Origin: Thermoanaerobacter kivui
Lineage (GTDB): Bacteria; Bacillota; Thermoanaerobacteria; Thermoanaerobacterales; Thermoanaerobacteraceae
Direction of reading: 5' to 3'
Length of the DNA: 64,000 nt
Assembly (NCBI RefSeq): GCF_000763575.1
Contig: NZ_CP009170.1
Coordinates: forward strand, 211,501 to 275,500
Below are positions 32,960-41,626 of the stretch, piece by piece (position 1 is the first letter of the stretch; each line of letters begins with the position of its first letter). The translations under genes and the position numbers were made by a program. The notes under the pieces are model-generated. The model had not been told where the DNA came from. It searched no databases and saw nothing but the letters and a program-made list of their open reading frames with translations.

Positions 32960-34414
32960 TTATTTGCTCCACTTTAAAACAGGATTTCTTGCAGCCAGTA
33001 CCTCATCAACCCTTCTTACAGGCGTGTTGTGTGGAGCTTCTTTTAAAAGTTGTGGATTTTCTTTTGCTTCCTCTGATATTTTAATCATTGCTTCAATAAA
33101 AGCGTCTAATGTTTCTTTACTTTCTGTTTCAGTAGGCTCTATCATTATAGCTTCATCAACAATTAATGGGAAATATATTGTAGGCGGATGGAAACCGTAG
33201 TCTATAAGTCTTTTAGCTACATCTAATGTTCTGATATCATTGACTTTTTCTAAGAGACCAGCTAAAACAAATTCATGCATGCATACTTTGTCAACAGCTA
33301 CTTTATAGTGATTTTTAAGTTTTTCTTTAAGATAATTAGCATTTAAGACGGCCATTTCGCTGGCTCTCTTAAGTCCTTCAGCTCCCATAGTTAGAATATA
33401 AGAATAAGCTTTTACAAGCACATTGAAGTTGCCATAAAAGCTTCTCACTTTTCCAATTGAAAGCGGCTTATCATAGTTTAAGCTATATATGCCATCTTTA
33501 AATTCTATTACAGGCACTGGTAAAAAGTCGGCAAGTTCTTTTTTGACACCTACAGGTCCTGCGCCAGGTCCTCCACCACCGTGAGGTGTAGAAAATGTCT
33601 TATGAAGATTTAGATGCACAACGTCAAATCCCATGTCTCCAGGGCGTGTAATTCCCATTATAGCATTTAGATTTGCGCCGTCGTAGTATAAAAGTCCTCC
33701 TGCTTCGTGTACTAGTCTTGCGATTTCTACTATATTTTCTTCAAAAAGTCCTAAGGTGCTGGGGTTTGTAAGCATAAGTCCTGCTACTTCCTCATTTAAA
33801 ACGGCTTTTAACGTCTCAAGGTCTATTGCACCTTCTTTGTTAGACTTAATTTCAATAACGTCAAAACCAGCAACTGCTGCACTGGCAGGATTTGTACCGT
33901 GGGCAGAATCTGGAACGATTATTTTTTTGCGTTTTGTGTCGTTTCTGTGCTCGTGATATGCTTTAATTATCATAAGACCTGTCAGTTCACCATGAGCACC
34001 TGCAGCAGGCTGTAATGAAAATTTGCCCATTCCAGTTATTTCAGAGAGCATATTTTCTAATTCATACATGAGTTTCAAAGCGCCTTGCACTGTTTCTACT
34101 GGCTGGTAGGGATGTAGAGCTGTAAAACCGACAAGGGATGCCATGTCTTCATTTATCTTGGGGTTATATTTCATTGTGCAGGACCCTAATGGATAAAAAC
34201 CTGTATCGACGCCGTAGTTTTTATTTGATAAAAGGGTGTAATGCCTTATTATGTCTACTTCACTTACTTCGGGAAGCTCTATTTCTTCTTTTCTCATCAT
34301 TTGTTGCGGAAGTATGTCTTCTAAAGGTTTTTCTTCTACATCCAACTTAGGGAGAGTGTAGGCTTTTCTTCCTTCCTTTGACAATTCAAATATCAATTTA
34401 TTGTACTTTTTCAC
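32960..34414 (-). CDS. gcvPB: Glycine dehydrogenase (decarboxylating) subunit 2
   Basis: The PLP-binding half of the two-subunit P-protein, which decarboxylates glycine and passes the aminomethyl group to GcvH. The PLP lysine is in [18 protein letters not shown], preceded by [26 protein letters not shown] near residue 75 is typical of the beta subunit. At 484 residues the length is normal. Its start overlaps the gcvPA stop by four bases. It is the last gene of the gcvT-H-PA-PB operon and ends at a shared terminator. Confidence 0.96.
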
Positions 34415-35754
34415 ACTATCACCTCCAGCAGAGCTTTTAACTCATCAATTTCTTCTTTTGTCCTTTTTTCTGTAAAGGCTAGTAACATTGTATTTTTGTA
34501 TTTGTCGTAATCTCTGTGGAGGTTGTATCCGCCTAATATGTCCTTTTCTAAAAGTTTTTTATTAATTAAGTCTACATCTACATCAGCCTTTAATACAAAT
34601 TCCATAAAGAAGGGCTTGCTAAAAGCAGGTTTATATTTTCCTGATGTGGTAAGCACTGAAAAAGCATAATGAGCTTTTTGAGTGCATTGATAAGCCACTT
34701 CTTTTATACCTTTTTTACCCATAGTTGCGAGATATATTGCAGCAGTCAAAGCATTTAATGAGTGGTTGGAGCAAATATTTGAAGTTGCCTTTTCTCTTCT
34801 TATGTGTTGTTCTCTTGCTTGCAAAGTAAGCACAAAAGCACGTCTACCATCTACATCTTTTGTCTGGCCTACTATTCTTCCTGGCATTTTTCGCACAAGC
34901 TTTTGCGTTGTAGCTAAAAAACCAATATAAGGACCACCAAAATTTAATCCGTTGCCAAGTGATTGACCGTCTCCTACAGCTATATCTGCGCCAATTTCTC
35001 CTGGCGATTTGAGTATGCCGAGAGGTATTGGATGTACGTAAGTTATTAACATTGCTTTGTTTTCATGTGTTATTTTCTCGATTTCTTGCAAATCTTCAAT
35101 GATTCCAAAGAAATTAGGATACTGTACAATTACTGCCGCGGTATTACTACCAATTTCATCTTTTAATTTTTCTATATCAGTTACACCTTCTGTGTCCTCT
35201 ATTTCAATTACTTGTATATCTCTAAAATGCATATAAGTTTTTAAAACTTTTCGAGTTTCTGGATTTACAGTTTTTGAAACTAATATGGTTTTTCTTTGTG
35301 TATTTTCACATGCCATAATTGCAGCTTCTGTACAGGCAGTTGCTCCGTCGTACATTGAAGCATTTGTGACTTCCATTCCTGTGAGGTTTGTAATCATCGT
35401 CTGGTACTCAAATATAGCTTGTAAAGTTCCTTGGCTTATTTCTGGCTGGTAAGGAGTATATGCCGTGTAAAATTCAGAATGAGATATTATATGCTTTACA
35501 ACAGAAGGGATGTAATGGTCATATACTCCAGCGCCTAAAAAACTTGTCAGCTCTTCAAGGCTTTTATTTTCTTTGGCGTATTTCTTTATGTGGGCTGTAA
35601 GCTCTATTTCTGACATGGGCTTACCTAAATTTAAAGGCCCTTTTAAGCGAACTTCTTGAGGTATGTTTTCAAACAGCTCTTCTATAGAATTTTTTCCTAT
35701 TGTTTTAAGCATTTCTTTTTCGTCATTGGAGGAGGTGGGAAGGTAGGGAAACAT
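34411..35754 (-). CDS. gcvPA: Glycine dehydrogenase (decarboxylating) subunit 1
   Basis: The non-PLP half of the split P-protein. MFPYLPTS at the start, [31 protein letters not shown] and [18 protein letters not shown] are family blocks. I chose ATG 35754, with GAGGAG eight bases upstream, over a frame five codons longer that begins inside gcvH without a ribosome binding site. The 447-residue length matches characterised homologues. The gene order and spacing indicate a single polycistronic message. Confidence 0.95.
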
Positions 35755-35758
35755 ATTC

Positions 35759-36139
35759 TCACTCCTCATCTAAAAATTTTTTATATTTTTCGGCTGTCAT
35801 CAAATTATCAAGCTGTGATTTATCTTTAAGTTCTACTAATATCATCCAGTTTTCGTAAGGGTCATTATTGACCAGAGAGGGGTCGTCTATAATCGAGGTG
35901 TTCACATCTATTACTTTTCCATTTACAGGTATGTAAACGTCAGATGCAGCTTTTACAGATTCTACAACTCCAAGTACATCGCCAGCAGAGAGTTCTGCGC
36001 CTACTTCTGGAAGCTCAATATACACTATGTTTCCTAAAGAATGCTGAGCATAATCTGTTATTCCCACATATGCTTTGTCCCCTTCCACTTTGACCCATTC
36101 ATGGTCTTTTGAGTAATATAAGCCTTCTAAAACTTTCAT
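35759..36139 (-). CDS. gcvH: Glycine cleavage system H protein
   Basis: The lipoyl carrier of the glycine cleavage system. The lipoylation lysine is in [15 protein letters not shown] (about residue 63), in the usual ESVKA context, and [21 protein letters not shown] opens the domain. At 126 residues it is full length. AAGGAGG precedes the ATG. It follows gcvT after 14 bases. Lipoate is likely attached by the ligase encoded by lplA on the other side of the insertion element. Confidence 0.96.
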
Positions 36140-36153
36140 ATAAAGATTCCTCC

Positions 36154-37260
36154 TTACTTTTTATAATTTTTCTTGTAAAAGTTTTTGCTTATGATTAAAG
36201 CCTTAAGTGGCTTGTTTCTTATCACAATTTCAATTTGATTTCCCATTTCTGCGTATTTTGCGTCAATCAATGCAAGGCCTATGTTTTTCTTTAATGTAGG
36301 TGAGAAATATCCGGTTGTGATATAGCCGATTTTTTGATTATCAGCACGAACTTCATAGCCGTGTCTTGGAATTCCATTGTCTATCATTTCAAATCCTACG
36401 ATTTTACGTTTAAGCCCTTCTTCTTTTTGCTTTAGTAAAGCATCTTTTCCGATGAAATTGCCTTTGTCAAATTTGACGAAAAACTCAAAACCTGCCTCTA
36501 AAGGAGTTATCTCTTCTGAAAGTTCATTTCCGTATAGAGGCAAACCGGCTTCAAACCGCAAAGTATCTCTTGCTCCTAATCCTACTGGTTTAAGCCCATA
36601 TTCTTTGCCTGTTTCAATTATTTTTTCCCATAATTCTGCTGCGTATTTATTGGGCATGTAAATTTCAAATCCGTCTTCACCTGTGTATCCGGTTCTTGAC
36701 ACTATGCAGTCAACACCTGCTATTTTGACATTATCTTTGAAGTAGAAAAATTTGATTTGCGAAAGGTCAGTATCTGTAAGTTTTTGAAGTATTTCTTCTG
36801 CTTTTGGACCTTGTATTGCAAGTTCAGAAACTTCATCTGAAATGTTATTTATCTCTACATCATATACTCCTTTGTTATCCCTCATCCATTTATAATCCTT
36901 TTCTATATTAGCTGCATTTACAACAAGGTAGTAGTGTTTGTCAGAATATTTGTAGACCAATAAGTCGTCTACAACGCCGCCATCGTAATTGCACATAAAG
37001 GTGTAAAAAACTTGATTATCTTTTAATTTAGACAAGTCATTTGTTATGAGATTTTGCAGAAAGGCAAAAGCTTCTCTCCCTTTTACAGTTATTTCTCCCA
37101 TGTGAGAAACATCGAATAGTCCTGCAGCGTTTCTCACTGCTTCGTGCTCAGAAATTATGCTTTCAAACTGAACAGGGAGAGCCCATCCTGCAAAGTCGAT
37201 GATTTTTCCATTGTATTTTTTGTAAAGGTCAAAAAGAGGTGTTTTTTTGAGGCTATCCAA
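36154..37260 (-). CDS. gcvT: Glycine cleavage system T protein (aminomethyltransferase)
   Basis: Transfers the methylene group from aminomethyl-GcvH to tetrahydrofolate and releases ammonia. Signature stretches are [13 protein letters not shown] near residue 50, [15 protein letters not shown] ([13 protein letters not shown] here) and [18 protein letters not shown]. At 368 residues the length is normal. The start is TTG 37260 preceded by AAAGGGTGTGATG, since no better in-frame codon exists. It is the first gene of the operon and lies 20 bases downstream of the riboswitch terminator. Confidence 0.95.
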
Positions 37261-37280
37261 AAGACATCACACCCTTTCAT

Positions 37281-37339
37281 AAAATTTTAAAAGAGGAGTT
37301 ATGATGAGCACAACAAAACAAATGCCATCATAACTCCCC
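37281..37339 (-). terminator. Expression-platform terminator of the glycine riboswitch
   Basis: On the minus strand GAGTTATGATG and CATCATAACTC form an 11-bp stem with a 19-base loop, followed by CTCTTTTAAAATTTT. It lies between the second aptamer and gcvT, so glycine binding probably prevents it from forming. Confidence 0.8.
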
Positions 37340-37345
37340 TGTTTT

Positions 37346-37511
37346 TTGACCTGAGAGCTTCTACTTAGTATTGCTCCTTCGGCGCTCTATACGAGACTTT
37401 CCAGAGGTCTATCCGATAGCGATACTTTTGCCTGAGAGCTTTTATAAAGGCTTGGCGGGCCTTTATATTTCCCCTTCGGCTATCTTTTTAAAAAAGATAT
37501 CTCTCGCTATC
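37346..37511 (-). ncRNA. Tandem glycine riboswitch (two aptamers)
   Basis: On the minus strand aptamer 1 (37511-37415) opens with GATAGCGAGAG and closes with CGCTATC. It contains GCCGAAGGGGAAA and GCTCTCAGGCAAAAG. Aptamer 2 (37413-37346) repeats the pattern with GCGCCGAAGGAGCAA and GCTCTCAGGTCAAAA. These are the conserved core and P3 parts of the gcvT riboswitch, and the two aptamers are separated by only a base or so. The riboswitch is an ON switch for glycine cleavage in characterised cases. The 5' edge is intact, but an insertion sequence begins seven bases upstream. Confidence 0.93.
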
Positions 37512-37517
37512 TTCATC
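37509..37517. repeat. Target-site duplication, left copy
   Basis: ATCTTCATC, repeated exactly at 39111-39119 on the other side of the insertion element. Confidence 0.8.
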
Positions 37518-39110
37518 CATAGTGTAAAATTATCGTAGGATTTTTTAAGTGATAAAAAACAAGAGACAACCCCTGTGATAAAATAGATTATGGAAAACAA
37601 AACAATACAGAAAGGGGTGTCTCTTGTGAAAAAAAATATCTTTGAGGATATTATACTACAAAATGCTCTAAATTTCACTAAGGAAGTAGTAGAAATTTTT
37701 GGTGATTTATTAAATAAAGGAATGAATATTACAGAGCTTGCAGCAAGGATAAAGGAACTGACGGACAAACTAGGTAGAGAGGCAATAGAAGCAATTATTG
37801 AAGAGTTAGATAGGATAATAAAAGAAGATAAGAGAAGGAAAGAAAAATGGGTAGTAGAGAGGAAAGATAAAAAGAGATTAACGACAATCCTTGGGGATAT
37901 AGAATATGAGAGGACATATTACAAATCCAGAGAGGATGGAAGATATACATACTTGATAGATGATGCATTAGAGATAGGACGGCACGATAGGATAGAGAAG
38001 GGAGTAAAAATAAAGTTAGTAGAAAACGCGATAGAAGAATCATATGAGAGAAGTAGTAAAAAAGCATGTCCAGAGGAGTTAAGTAAACAGACGGTATTAA
38101 ACGCAATAAGGGAAATAGGAGAAGTAGAAGTAAAGAGAGAAATAAAAGAGAAGAAAGAGGTAAGGGTATTATACATAGAAGCAGATGAAGACCATGTGCC
38201 TTTGCAAGATGGCAGCAATGAAACACCGCGATTGATATACATACATGAAGGTAAAGAAGAGAAAAATGGTAGAAATGTACTGAGAAATGTGCATTACAAA
38301 GCATATGTAGGAGAGAAACCTGAAGACATATGGATAGATGTAGCAAATTACATAGAAGACAATTACAAAGAAGAGAAGATAGAGAAGATATACATAGCAG
38401 GAGATGGGGCACCGTGGATAAAAGAGGGATTAAAATGGATATTAAAATCAAGGTTTGTGTTAGACAGATATCATTTAAACAAATACGTATTAAAAGCAAC
38501 ATCAAAAGAGCCAAAGTATAGAGATAAGATATGGAGAGCAATAAATGAAGGGAATAAAGAAGGAGTGAAGAAGGTATTTGATGAGCTAATAAAGGCAGCA
38601 GAGGAAGAGAGAGAGAAAGAGAAGATAAAAGAAGCAAGGAAATACATACTAAACAATTGGGAAGGAATAGTGATATACAACAAAGACGAAGATGTAATAG
38701 GGTGCAGTGCAGAAGGGCATATAAGCCATGTATTTTCAGCCAGATTAAGCAGGAATCCACTAGGGTGGAGTAGAGAAGGATTAAAGTTAATGGCGAAATT
38801 AAGGGTATTCAGCAAGAATGGAGGAGACTTAAGAGAAGCAGAATGGGGTAAGAAAAAGAATATCAATGCTGGGAGTTATAATTTAACGAAGAAGCAAATA
38901 AAAGAAGCGGTAAGGAGAGTTAAAACGTCTACAAATGAAAAAATAAACAATATTACGGTTTTGAATATAGGGAAAGTAACGCCAATATATAGGGTTTTAA
39001 GAGCATTAAAATATGCACAAGTTATATAAAAAGCATGATAAGTTGAAGTATGAAATTAACTAAGTTTCAGGGGTTGTCTTAAAAAAATCCTACAGTATCT
39101 TGACACTATC
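37518..39110 (+). mobile_element. ISLre2-type insertion sequence
   Basis: A 1593-bp element with imperfect terminal inverted repeats. The left end starts CATAGTGTAAAATTATCGTAG and the right end read inward is GATAGTGTCAAGATACTGTAG; both continue into GGATTTTTTAAG. A further match GACAACCCCTG lies inside each end, with about 17 extra bases on the left. It is flanked by the 9-bp direct repeat ATCTTCATC, a duplication size I recall for this family. It carries one full-length transposase gene and looks recently inserted. Confidence 0.88.
37626..39029 (+). CDS. ISLre2 family (UPF0236) transposase
   Basis: A full-length transposase of the ISLre2/UPF0236 group. Family landmarks are the [18 protein letters not shown] block, [16 protein letters not shown] with acidic residues, [27 protein letters not shown] and [20 protein letters not shown]. 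The GTG start at 37626 has AAAGGGG upstream and gives 467 residues; an ATG twelve codons earlier is also open. No stop or frameshift interrupts it, so it may be active. The coding strand is extremely A/G-rich, which creates a spurious 321-codon leucine-rich frame on the opposite strand. Confidence 0.92.
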
Positions 39111-39119
39111 ATCTTCATC
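39111..39119. repeat. Target-site duplication, right copy
   Basis: ATCTTCATC, identical to 37509-37517. Confidence 0.8.
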
Positions 39120-39159: not shown

Positions 39160-39187
39160 ATTATATCATATTACCTTTAATAGTCAA
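39160..39187 (-). promoter_or_regulatory. Probable original promoter of the gcv operon
   Basis: On the minus strand TTGACT (39187-39182), a 16-base spacer and TGATATAAT, an extended -10 (TATAAT at 39165-39160). It points toward the riboswitch but is now separated from it by the 1.6-kb insertion. Confidence 0.65.
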
Positions 39188-39220
39188 TAATCGTTAAAAT
39201 CAAGACAAGGAGAGGTGCCT

Positions 39221-40201
39221 ATGCTATACATTTATAATAAAAACACAAATCCATATTTTAATTTGGCGGCAGAAGAATATATTTTGAAAGAATTTAAAGA
39301 TGAGTGCTTTATGTTGTGGCGAAACGGACCCAGCATTATAGTAGGTAAAAACCAGAACACATTGGCGGAAATAAATTTAGATTATGTGAGAGAACATAAA
39401 ATTCCGATTGTCAGAAGATTATCAGGAGGAGGAGCAGTTTTTCACGACCTTGGTAACTTAAATTTTACTTTTATAGTAAACGATGATGTTAGCAGTTTTA
39501 GCGACTTTAGAAGATTTACACAGCCAATAATAGATGTGCTTAGAAAACTTTCTGTCAATGCTGAGTTTTCAGGAAGAAACGATTTAACAATTGATGGTAA
39601 GAAATTTTCAGGTAACGCACAATATTACTATAAAAACAGGATATTACACCACGGGACCCTTTTGTTTTCCTCAAGCATTACCGATTTGTCAGCGGCACTA
39701 AAAGTAAGACCCATAAAATTTGAAGATAAAGGCGTAAAATCTGTATCTAAAAGAGTTACAAACATAAGTGAACATCTAAAAGAGCCTATTACAATAGAAC
39801 AGTTTATAGACCTTATTATGAATCATATTAGAGAGCAAAGTGGTGGCAATGAATTGTATGAATTTACACAAGAGGATGTAGAAAAAATAGAGAAATTGGT
39901 CAGAGAAAAGTACAGTACATGGGAATGGAATTTTGGAACATCGCCTGATTATAGTTTCAAAAATGAAAAAAAATTTGCCGGGGGCACTGTTGAAGTAAAT
40001 TTAAATGTTGAAAAAGGAATAATAAAAGATATAAAAATTTATGGAGACTTTTTTGGGAAATACGATGTCTCAGAATTAGAAAATCTTCTAAAAGGTGTAA
40101 AGCATTCGGAAGAGGAAATAAGAAAAGTGCTTTCAAATATTGATATAAACGATTATTTTGCTAGCATAACTGTTGACAATTTAATCGAAGTGATGTTTTG
40201 A
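39221..40201 (+). CDS. lplA: Lipoate-protein ligase A
   Basis: Activates lipoate with ATP and attaches it to the lysine of lipoyl domains such as GcvH. The family block IVRRLSGGGAVFHDLGNLNFTF (the RRxxGGGxVxHD motif, about residues 67-82) is intact. The binding loop lysine lies in NDLTIDGKKFSGNAQYY, and the C-terminal accessory domain is present. ATG 39221 follows AAGGAG at eight bases; a GTG six bases earlier overlaps that site. The product is 326 residues. Its position opposite the gcv operon fits lipoylation of GcvH in an organism that may rely on scavenged lipoate. Confidence 0.94.
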   Translation: MLYIYNKNTNPYFNLAAEEYILKEFKDECFMLWRNGPSIIVGKNQNTLAEINLDYVREHKIPIVRRLSGGGAVFHDLGNLNFTFIVNDDVSSFSDFRRFTQPIIDVLRKLSVNAEFSGRNDLTIDGKKFSGNAQYYYKNRILHHGTLLFSSSITDLSAALKVRPIKFEDKGVKSVSKRVTNISEHLKEPITIEQFIDLIMNHIREQSGGNELYEFTQEDVEKIEKLVREKYSTWEWNFGTSPDYSFKNEKKFAGGTVEVNLNVEKGIIKDIKIYGDFFGKYDVSELENLLKGVKHSEEEIRKVLSNIDINDYFASITVDNLIEVMF

Positions 40202-40221
40202 TAAAAAATATTTTTAGATTG

Positions 40222-40250
40222 TTGACTTTTTAACCAAAAAGTGATAAAAT
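40222..40250 (+). promoter_or_regulatory. Promoter candidate upstream of the lpd remnant
   Basis: TTGACT (40222-40227), a 17-base spacer and TAAAAT (40245-40250). It could now drive the AhpD-like gene downstream. Confidence 0.5.
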
Positions 40251-40339
40251 ATATACAAACGAAATTGTTAATAATTGTCGTTTTTTATTTTATCAAATTT
40301 AGTCCCTCCCCATTAGGGGGGCGCCTATTAAATGAGATA

Positions 40340-40709
40340 TTATTGGTGGGTAAAACTGCTAAGAGAGACGAATTTGGTGTGAAAGTGTCTGTTGTAGAAA
40401 TGATGCCGGACATTTTTCCTACACTTGATAAAGAAGTAAGTTCTTTTATTAGGACTGTAGCTCAAAGAAGAGGGATTAAAATATATACTTCTTCAACAGT
40501 TGAGAGAATAGATGAAGAAGAAAACGGCAGAAGTATAGTGACTGTTAAAAATGGTGAAAATATAAAACGTATATATACTTCCAACAGCTTGCCAGGAGGG
40601 TGTAGATGCAGAAGCTTTAAAAAGAGCAGTTTACTCCCATCCCACCAGGGGAGAAGCTATTATGGAAGCTGTTAAAGATATCTTTGGAGAATCTGTACAC
40701 AAGATATAA
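40340..40709 (+). pseudogene. Dihydrolipoamide dehydrogenase (lpd) remnant with internal deletion
   Basis: Two pieces of a dihydrolipoamide dehydrogenase survive. The first (40370-40565) encodes FGVKVSVVEMMPDIFPTLD and continues through the NAD-binding domain to VERIDEEENGRSIVTVKNG. The second (40602-40709, a different frame) encodes VDAEALKRAVYSHPTRGEAI and runs to the end, matching the C-terminal HPT segment with the catalytic histidine. The N-terminal FAD domain with its redox disulfide and about 100 or more central residues are missing. It would have been the L-protein of glycine cleavage, next to lplA. It is certainly non-functional. Confidence 0.85.
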
Positions 40710-40802: not shown

Positions 40803-41135
40803 ATGGCAAGCGTAGACATGAAGGAATTACAAGAAGGTATGAAAAAGCTGGGAGAAGGGGTACCTTCAGTGATGAGGGATTTCCAGAAACTTCACCATGA
40901 TGCTAAAGCCAACGGGGCCCTCTCAACTAAGGAAAAAGAGCTCATCGCTTTGGGCATCGCTGTGGCTGTCCGTTGCTCCTACTGCATCCTCACCCACGTA
41001 AATGCGGCCCTGCAAGCGGGAGCTACCCGGGAAGAGATCATGGAGACCCTAGGAGTGGCTATACTTATGGGTGGAGGACCTGCTGTGACTTATGCCACTG
41101 AGGCTATAAAGGCTTTGGAAGAGGCTGGAAAGTAA
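40803..41135 (+). CDS. AhpD-like carboxymuconolactone decarboxylase family protein
   Basis: A 110-residue helical protein with the AhpD-like redox motif CSYCILTH (about residues 60-67), in which two cysteines and a nearby histidine act in peroxidase or disulfide chemistry. The KEKELIALGIAVAVRC and AGATREEIMETLGVA flanks are typical of the family. ATG 40803 has AAAGGAGG upstream. The gene has markedly higher GC and codons such as CTC, ATC, GGC and CCC that are rare in its neighbours, suggesting horizontal gain. The next gene is an OsmC homologue, so a peroxide or thiol stress role is plausible. Confidence 0.88.
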   Translation: MASVDMKELQEGMKKLGEGVPSVMRDFQKLHHDAKANGALSTKEKELIALGIAVAVRCSYCILTHVNAALQAGATREEIMETLGVAILMGGGPAVTYATEAIKALEEAGK

Positions 41136-41182
41136 AGTTGAATTAATTACAAAATATTGAAATAAGAGGAGAGGAATTGAAA

Positions 41183-41626
41183 ATGGCAATTGAAACTTTT
41201 AAAGCAGTTTCAAGAAAATTACCAGAAGGTTTAGCAGTTGAGAGCGAAGTGAGAGGTTTCAAAATAGTACTAGATGAGCCAAAAGAATTAGGCGGTACAA
41301 ATAAAGGGATGAACCCTGTAGAGGCTTTACTTTGCGCTTTAGGTTCTTGCCAGACAATTGTGGCATCAGCTTTTGCAAAGGCAAAAGGTATAAATTTACA
41401 AGATTTTTGGGTTGAATTAGAAGGAGACCTTGATACAGATGGTTTCAGGGGGAAAGCTAATGTAAGACCAGGCTTCCAAGAGATAAGATTTAAAATGCAC
41501 ATAAAAACAGACTCGCCAAAAGAAAAAGTAGAAGAATTTGTAAAGTTTATAGAAAAAACCTGCCCTGTAGGCGATTCTATAGCAAATCCAGTAAAATTAG
41601 TTTTGTCAGATGTGATTGTTGAATAA
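41183..41626 (+). CDS. OsmC/Ohr family protein
   Basis: A 147-residue OsmC-fold protein. The two reactive cysteines are in LCALGSCQTIVASAFAKAKG (about residue 56) and EKTCPVGDSIANP near the C-terminus, the arrangement used for thiol-dependent reduction of organic hydroperoxides. ATG 41183 has AGAGGAGAGG eight bases upstream. It lies 47 bases after the AhpD-like gene and ends at a strong terminator. Whether it is the OsmC or the YhfA-like branch cannot be decided by eye. Confidence 0.9.
   Translation: MAIETFKAVSRKLPEGLAVESEVRGFKIVLDEPKELGGTNKGMNPVEALLCALGSCQTIVASAFAKAKGINLQDFWVELEGDLDTDGFRGKANVRPGFQEIRFKMHIKTDSPKEKVEEFVKFIEKTCPVGDSIANPVKLVLSDVIVE

Follow-up and report, generated by a model that had tools for sequence, protein, structure and literature searches.

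A truncated L-protein gene at the glycine cleavage locus of Thermoanaerobacter kivui and its likely replacement by another dihydrolipoamide dehydrogenase

Which protein serves as the L-protein (dihydrolipoamide dehydrogenase, Lpd) of glycine cleavage in Thermoanaerobacter kivui? The question is raised by a 64,000-nucleotide stretch of its genome (NZ_CP009170.1, positions 211,501 to 275,500; hereafter the window), in which the gcv genes and lplA are accompanied by the remains of an lpd gene. An earlier note on this DNA had offered two readings, namely that glycine cleavage is decaying here or that another dihydrolipoamide dehydrogenase serves it. We assessed the remnant, the neighboring genes and their promoters, and the Lpd genes elsewhere in the genome.

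The lpd remnant downstream of lplA

The intact same-place gene of the relative G001, which encodes a lipoyl-Lpd of 551 aa, was used as the reference for the remnant. Searches by tblastn confirmed the two Lpd-like pieces in different frames that had been described earlier, and alignments with relatives located two deletions.

40367-40576, plus strand: lpd remnant piece 1 (tblastn), 70 aa corresponding to G001 residues 281-350, 91% identity
40569-40706, plus strand: lpd remnant piece 2 (tblastn), 46 aa corresponding to G001 residues 506-551 (C-terminus), 83% identity
40369-40371, plus strand: deletion junction 1, about 0.86 kb lost, seen as the gap between query parts 1-169 and 170-374 in the relatives
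40574-40577, plus strand: deletion junction 2, 472 bp lost, seen as the gap between query parts 170-374 and 374-581 in the relatives

The matches have E-values of 7e-40 (piece 1) and 1e-24 (piece 2), with one stretch as the search space, and neither contains an internal stop. Piece 1 represents part of the NAD-binding region past the GGGxIG motif and gives a partial Pfam Pyr_redox match. In the whole-genome search, the lipoamide_DH profile (TIGR01350) matches 40370-40567 with an E-value of 9.2e-10 and 37.6 bits, below its cut-off of 408.8 bits. Piece 2 retains the HPTxxE motif (as HPTRGE), followed by the stop codon. The 144-aa ORF at 40241-40675 is a mechanical frame, which leaves piece 1 for another frame.

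As previously noted, the FAD motif and the redox disulfide are absent. More specifically, the FAD-binding GxGxxG (residue 104 in G001), the disulfide motif GGTCLNxGCIPTK (residue 132) and the NAD-binding GGGxIGxEFA (residue 268) all fall within the deleted part, and the C-terminal His-Glu motif HPTxxE is the sole survivor among the motifs sought. The N-terminal lipoyl domain and a central segment are lost as well. Deletion 1 extends from just 5' of the ribosome-binding site to approximately residue 280 (867 bp relative to G002, 861 bp relative to G008), and thereby removed the ribosome-binding site, the start, the lipoyl domain, the FAD domain and the NAD motif. Deletion 2 measures 472 bp relative to both genomes; in relatives, ATAC flanks the second gap on both sides, a pair that appears to resemble those of many slippage deletions. 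With two deletions and a frame change, no start-to-stop frame is left, and about 435 of the 551 residues, or about four fifths of the gene, are missing. Lpd activity is not expected of any product. The remnant is a pseudogene of the L-protein gene of the gcv locus.

In relatives, the intact protein is a fusion in which a Biotin_lipoyl domain (E-values of 6.8e-20 in G008 and 1.2e-18 in G001) is followed by pyridine nucleotide-disulfide oxidoreductase domains. A full-length frame lies 3' of lplA in six of the ten genus genomes (G001, G002, G005, G007, G008 and G009). G004 carries the first part of lpd up to the contig end, T. kivui (G000) has the remnant, G003 has no lpd at this place, and in G006 (90% complete) neither lplA nor gcvT nor lpd was matched at the thresholds used. 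The surroundings of the remnant, with lplA before and osmC and aspC after it, are like those in G001, G002, G005, G008 and G009, and the order in G007 is lplA-lpd-osmC; in the T. kivui window, cmd lies between the remnant and osmC. Pieces of a group II intron were observed between osmC and aspC in G008 (L033:14725-16553). Among the best 80 of 137 public LplA loci, an Lpd gene is found on the stretch in 22 and the lipoyl-Lpd fusion in 9, six of them from Thermoanaerobacter or Thermoanaerobacterium and three from assembled genomes with only a higher-rank name.

The two pieces are 91% and 83% identical to the G001 protein, compared with 84% and 70% to T. kivui's own Lpd3, described below. The remnant is therefore a decayed orthologue of the lipoyl-Lpd and not a copy of lpd3, which supports the previously suggested loss of the locus's own L-protein. 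That the remnant is an assembly or sequencing artefact is hardly credible. The comparison covers one genome per species, but the T. kivui genome is a single contig of 2,397,824 bases with a completeness of 99.99, and the deletions are large and clean with uninterrupted flanks. Two clean losses of about 0.86 and 0.47 kb are not explained by base-calling error, and G003 shows a loss at the same place.

The gcv genes and their leader

The other components of the locus, together with the leader region of the gcv operon, are as follows.

36154-37260, minus strand: gcvT, intact, TIGR00528 above cut-off
35759-36139, minus strand: gcvH, intact, TIGR00527 above cut-off
34411-35769, minus strand: gcvPA, intact, NF001696 above cut-off
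32960-34414, minus strand: gcvPB, intact, NF003346 above cut-off
39215-40201, plus strand: lplA, lipoate-protein ligase, intact, TIGR00545 above cut-off
37336-37516, minus strand: tandem glycine riboswitch in the gcv leader, RF00504, 62.5 and 46.7 bits
37518-39110, plus strand: ISLre2-family insertion sequence (IS), transposase at 37590-39029, NF033529 386.1 bits versus a cut-off of 200
39160-39187, minus strand: likely original gcv promoter, TTGACT-16-TATAAT, 11/12 consensus match

To gauge selection on these genes, we compared the mean dN/dS of T. kivui against seven relatives with the values among the relatives. The former are 0.074 for gcvT, 0.094 for gcvH, 0.132 for gcvPA, 0.045 for gcvPB and 0.040 for lplA; the latter are, in the same order, 0.100, 0.099, 0.098, 0.059 and 0.080. 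Among these five genes, only gcvPA exceeds the relatives' value, and does so slightly. G003 stands outside the averages and G020 was left out; gcvPB of G009 and G007 and gcvPA of G007 entered as partial genes with split frames, osmC was calculated without G004, and aspC without G004 and G007. Each value averages over species and is blind to change as recent as the IS insertion. The frames in question, gcvPB of G009 (L034, at about 7613) and both gcvPA and gcvPB of G007 (L038, at about 7039 and 8220), are each split into two, reflecting either sequencing errors or real frameshifts.

The promoter-separating insertion of the earlier note was confirmed: it is the ISLre2 element, which lies between the riboswitch and the likely gcv promoter. 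Its ends are inverted over 28 nt with 82% complementarity, and it is flanked by a 9-bp target duplication, ATCTTCATC, at 37509-37517 and 39111-39119. The element is one of five genome copies identical over 1592 bases, which indicates that the insertion is recent; a 9-bp duplication flanks two of the other four copies, an 8-bp duplication one, and the remaining copy has none. The target site is uninterrupted in all six relatives compared, with the nine letters identical in three and one base different in the other three. As a result, the likely promoter now lies about 1.6 kb from the riboswitch, and the corresponding stretch adjoins the riboswitch in the six relatives. The gcv operon of this T. 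kivui genome is thus without the promoter-riboswitch arrangement of its relatives, and its regulation may have been altered. An outward promoter in the IS was considered and set aside: on the minus strand, 37678-37650 and 37630-37602 match the consensus, possibly by chance, with 22 promoter-like matches over the region against a shuffle mean of 14.0 (sd 4.0). Among the literature listings and passages available to us, which cover the field in part, no published account of the lpd remnant or of the IS in the gcv leader was found.

Could the system as a whole be on its way out, with lpd lost, the promoter cut off by the IS and the other genes intact only because these losses are recent? The presence of the remnant, the recent IS between likely promoter and riboswitch (perfect 9-bp duplication, five identical copies), and the slightly raised dN/dS of gcvPA (0.132 versus 0.098) are consistent with such a decay, as is a hairpin that resembles a terminator, lies within the IS and is oriented towards gcv (one found, against 1.5 expected in shuffles). 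We nevertheless consider decay improbable. None of the four gcv genes is shortened, nor is lplA, and their dN/dS is low; the two riboswitch aptamers score at the level seen in six relatives (61.9-62.3 and 44.9-49.4 bits), and three intact Lpd remain in the genome. Furthermore, in a 2025 study (PMC12044746), for which the reference genome was G-1 (OZ020628), gcv (TKV_RS01195-01180) is reported to be one of the most strongly upregulated loci upon deletion of rexA in T. kivui, so the strain studied there transcribes the operon. At the coding level, the proposed decay of glycine cleavage is thus unsupported, given full-length genes with dN/dS values of 0.05-0.13 and the reported rise in gcv RNA.

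The same study also reports that, with up to four mismatches, a sequence recognised by Rex adjoins gcv (PMC12044746). With the consensus given there, TTGTTAANNNNTTAACAA, we obtained 121 plus-strand matches in the window at up to four mismatches, so this level is uninformative; those near gcvT are at 37276, 37541, 37542, 37699 and 39191. The best match in the window has two mismatches, lies at 40219-40236 and overlaps the former lpd promoter, and another match lies 5' of tusA in the lpd3 cluster (L009:7104). Compared with shuffles, the counts are 1 versus 2.23 expected in the window and 1 versus 0.38 expected in L009. A match with two to three mismatches recurs at the place of the lpd promoter in all nine stretches from relatives (L032-L040), where the DNA is conserved anyway. 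A Rex operator at the former lpd promoter was therefore not adopted; the site there is at chance level, and the matches serve as a lead.

The likely former lpd promoter and the genes behind the remnant

Between lplA and the remnant lies a promoter-like site, and two genes in the same orientation follow the remnant.

40222-40250, plus strand: likely former lpd promoter, TTGACT-17-TAAAAT, with TG before the second hexamer
40803-41135, plus strand: cmd, carboxymuconolactone-decarboxylase family, Pfam CMD 5.7e-24, directly 3' of the remnant
41177-41626, plus strand: osmC-like gene, Pfam OsmC 2.5e-25

The promoter region is conserved in relatives, and in G003 it lies directly 5' of cmd. A scan that ended at 41000 found no terminator-like site between the promoter and cmd. 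Most likely, the former lpd promoter now transcribes cmd and osmC. The G+C content of cmd is 51%, compared with 32-38% for lplA, osmC and gcvPB. Because cmd lies closely behind lpd in G012, G013, L052 and L058, a horizontal gain seems less likely than long-standing membership of the cluster followed by loss in the other Thermoanaerobacter.

The same arrangement could be taken to mean that the remnant is still functional, either as a regulatory leader or through a small peptide encoded by the 144-aa ORF. It has a promoter-like site, an open frame and genes downstream, and G003 keeps the promoter region 5' of cmd after its loss of lpd. However, the ORF joins piece 1 to an unrelated frame, with no more than a partial Pyr_redox match; the original start region of lpd is gone, and this frame continues into a full Lpd in G008 and G002. 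A plain 5' leader of cmd-osmC requires no product, and a function of the remnant itself is very unlikely.

Candidates for the L-protein of glycine cleavage

A profile search of the whole genome for an intact lpd elsewhere, as had been proposed, found three genes above the lipoamide_DH cut-off, and all three keep the FAD, CxxxxC, NAD and HPTxxE motifs.

Genome 1.912 Mb: Lpd1, 553.9 bits
Genome 1.502 Mb: Lpd2, 541.9 bits
Genome 92565-94001 (0.093 Mb): Lpd3, 478 aa, 502.5 bits

Of the two branches left by the earlier note, the service of another dihydrolipoamide dehydrogenase is thus the better supported, with three candidates that may fill this role.

The lpd3 gene is preceded by tusA, a presumed yeeE, dsrE and tusB, and followed by a second gcvH, whose product exceeds the GcvH cut-off and is 73% identical to that of the gcv operon. 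No lipoyl domain match was obtained in Lpd3. This cluster, tusA-yeeE-dsrE-(tusC)-tusB-lpd-gcvH (L009:7141-11465), is kept in G003, G008 and G009 and split over contigs in G004. A gene between dsrE and tusB, presumably tusC/dsrF-like by its position, is broken in T. kivui (L009:8840-9268, genome ~91.84-92.27 kb) by roughly 64 additional bases, where a 32-bp repeat recurs at 64-base spacing, and is an open frame of 120 codons in G003, G008 and G009. The sulfur-relay proteins adjoining an Lpd and an H-protein may point to a lipoyl carrier in sulfur transfer.

For Lpd2, a neighboring gene looks like lipA. Lpd1 belongs to the Wood-Ljungdahl cluster, together with cooC, metF/metV and gcvH, and good expression would be expected of it in an acetogen. 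The names we use for the genes at 1.903-1.922 Mb in part follow PMC4320612, which gives a Wood-Ljungdahl gene order in agreement with the ORFs there.

Compared with full-length orthologues of the missing protein, Lpd3 shows 88-91% identity, and Lpd1 and Lpd2 show 41-43%. This similarity and the adjoining second gcvH place Lpd3 first, and we give it about an even chance of being the replacement L-protein. It is possible, if somewhat doubtful, that Lpd1, with its own gcvH, is the working L-protein instead, which would be a variant of the same explanation. Lpd1 is intact and above the cut-off, and its gene clusters with metF/metV, cooC and gcvH, but its identity to the lost protein's orthologues is only 41-43% versus 88-91% for Lpd3. 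An analogy in its favor comes from Clostridium ljungdahlii, whose sole lpdA lies beside metFV and is predicted by the authors to be the glycine-cleavage L-protein (PMC8515935). With Lpd3 in a sulfur-relay-like cluster and Lpd1 in the Wood-Ljungdahl cluster, each may also have a job of its own.

The distribution of lpd3 among the relatives was also considered. It is present in both genomes that lost the gcv-locus lpd (2/2) and in five of the nine gcv-bearing genomes overall, which makes weak the notion that the gcv-locus lpd was lost only where lpd3 is present. In a protein tree of 14 Lpd, one of 11 inner branches is well supported and some gcv-locus copies fall among the lpd3 copies. Gene conversion could account for this placement, and the tree carries no claim here; it includes the G003 lpd3 row with an upstream stop as X, and the gcv-locus rows of G005, G007, G009 and G020, as well as G021, without N-terminal parts.

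Taken together, it is highly probable that lpd at this locus is a pseudogene, that its role as L-protein has been taken over by another Lpd, and that its old promoter now serves cmd-osmC. The lipoyl-fused L-protein gene was cut by the two deletions, and the T, H and P genes stayed intact; in the sequence of events that we propose, the dihydrolipoyl arm of the H-protein would be reoxidised by another cellular Lpd, with Lpd3 as the likeliest substitute and the Lpd of the Wood-Ljungdahl cluster next. The likely former lpd promoter was kept, with the transcription of cmd-osmC as its most likely present task. The loss of lpd is in itself an ordinary gene loss, probably buffered by paralogues. A more far-reaching version, in which T. 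kivui was rewired in two steps, is rather unlikely: there, the lipoyl-tethered L-protein would have given way to an Lpd shared with the sulfur-relay or Wood-Ljungdahl H-protein, and the IS would supply or reshape a promoter upstream of the glycine riboswitch, with cmd-osmC under the former lpd promoter. If glycine cleavage works in T. kivui, its L-protein has to be encoded away from the gcv locus. This is useful for T. kivui engineering and for one-carbon models of acetogens, in which an assignment to the nearest lpd would be wrong.

These features can be set against known systems. With the lipoyl-domain Lpd (TIGR01350) 3' of lplA in other Thermoanaerobacter, the remnant shares its position, its promoter region and 91/83% identity, but it lacks the start, the FAD, disulfide and NAD motifs and ~435 of 551 residues. 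Lpd3 (TIGR01350, 478 aa), with 84%/70% identity to the remnant pieces and 88-91% to the lost gene's full-length orthologues, differs from that gene in being intact, in giving no lipoyl domain match and in its place in the tusA-yeeE-dsrE-tusB-lpd-gcvH cluster. A further parallel is offered by glycine cleavage operons that rely on an Lpd from a different locus, for example in Escherichia coli, where gcvTHP uses the lpd that belongs to the pyruvate dehydrogenase genes. There, likewise, T, H and P stand together with a distant lpd, and in T. kivui the L-protein would presumably also come from another locus. Unlike in E. coli, the T. kivui arrangement arose by losing a local L-protein gene, the remains of which are still visible.
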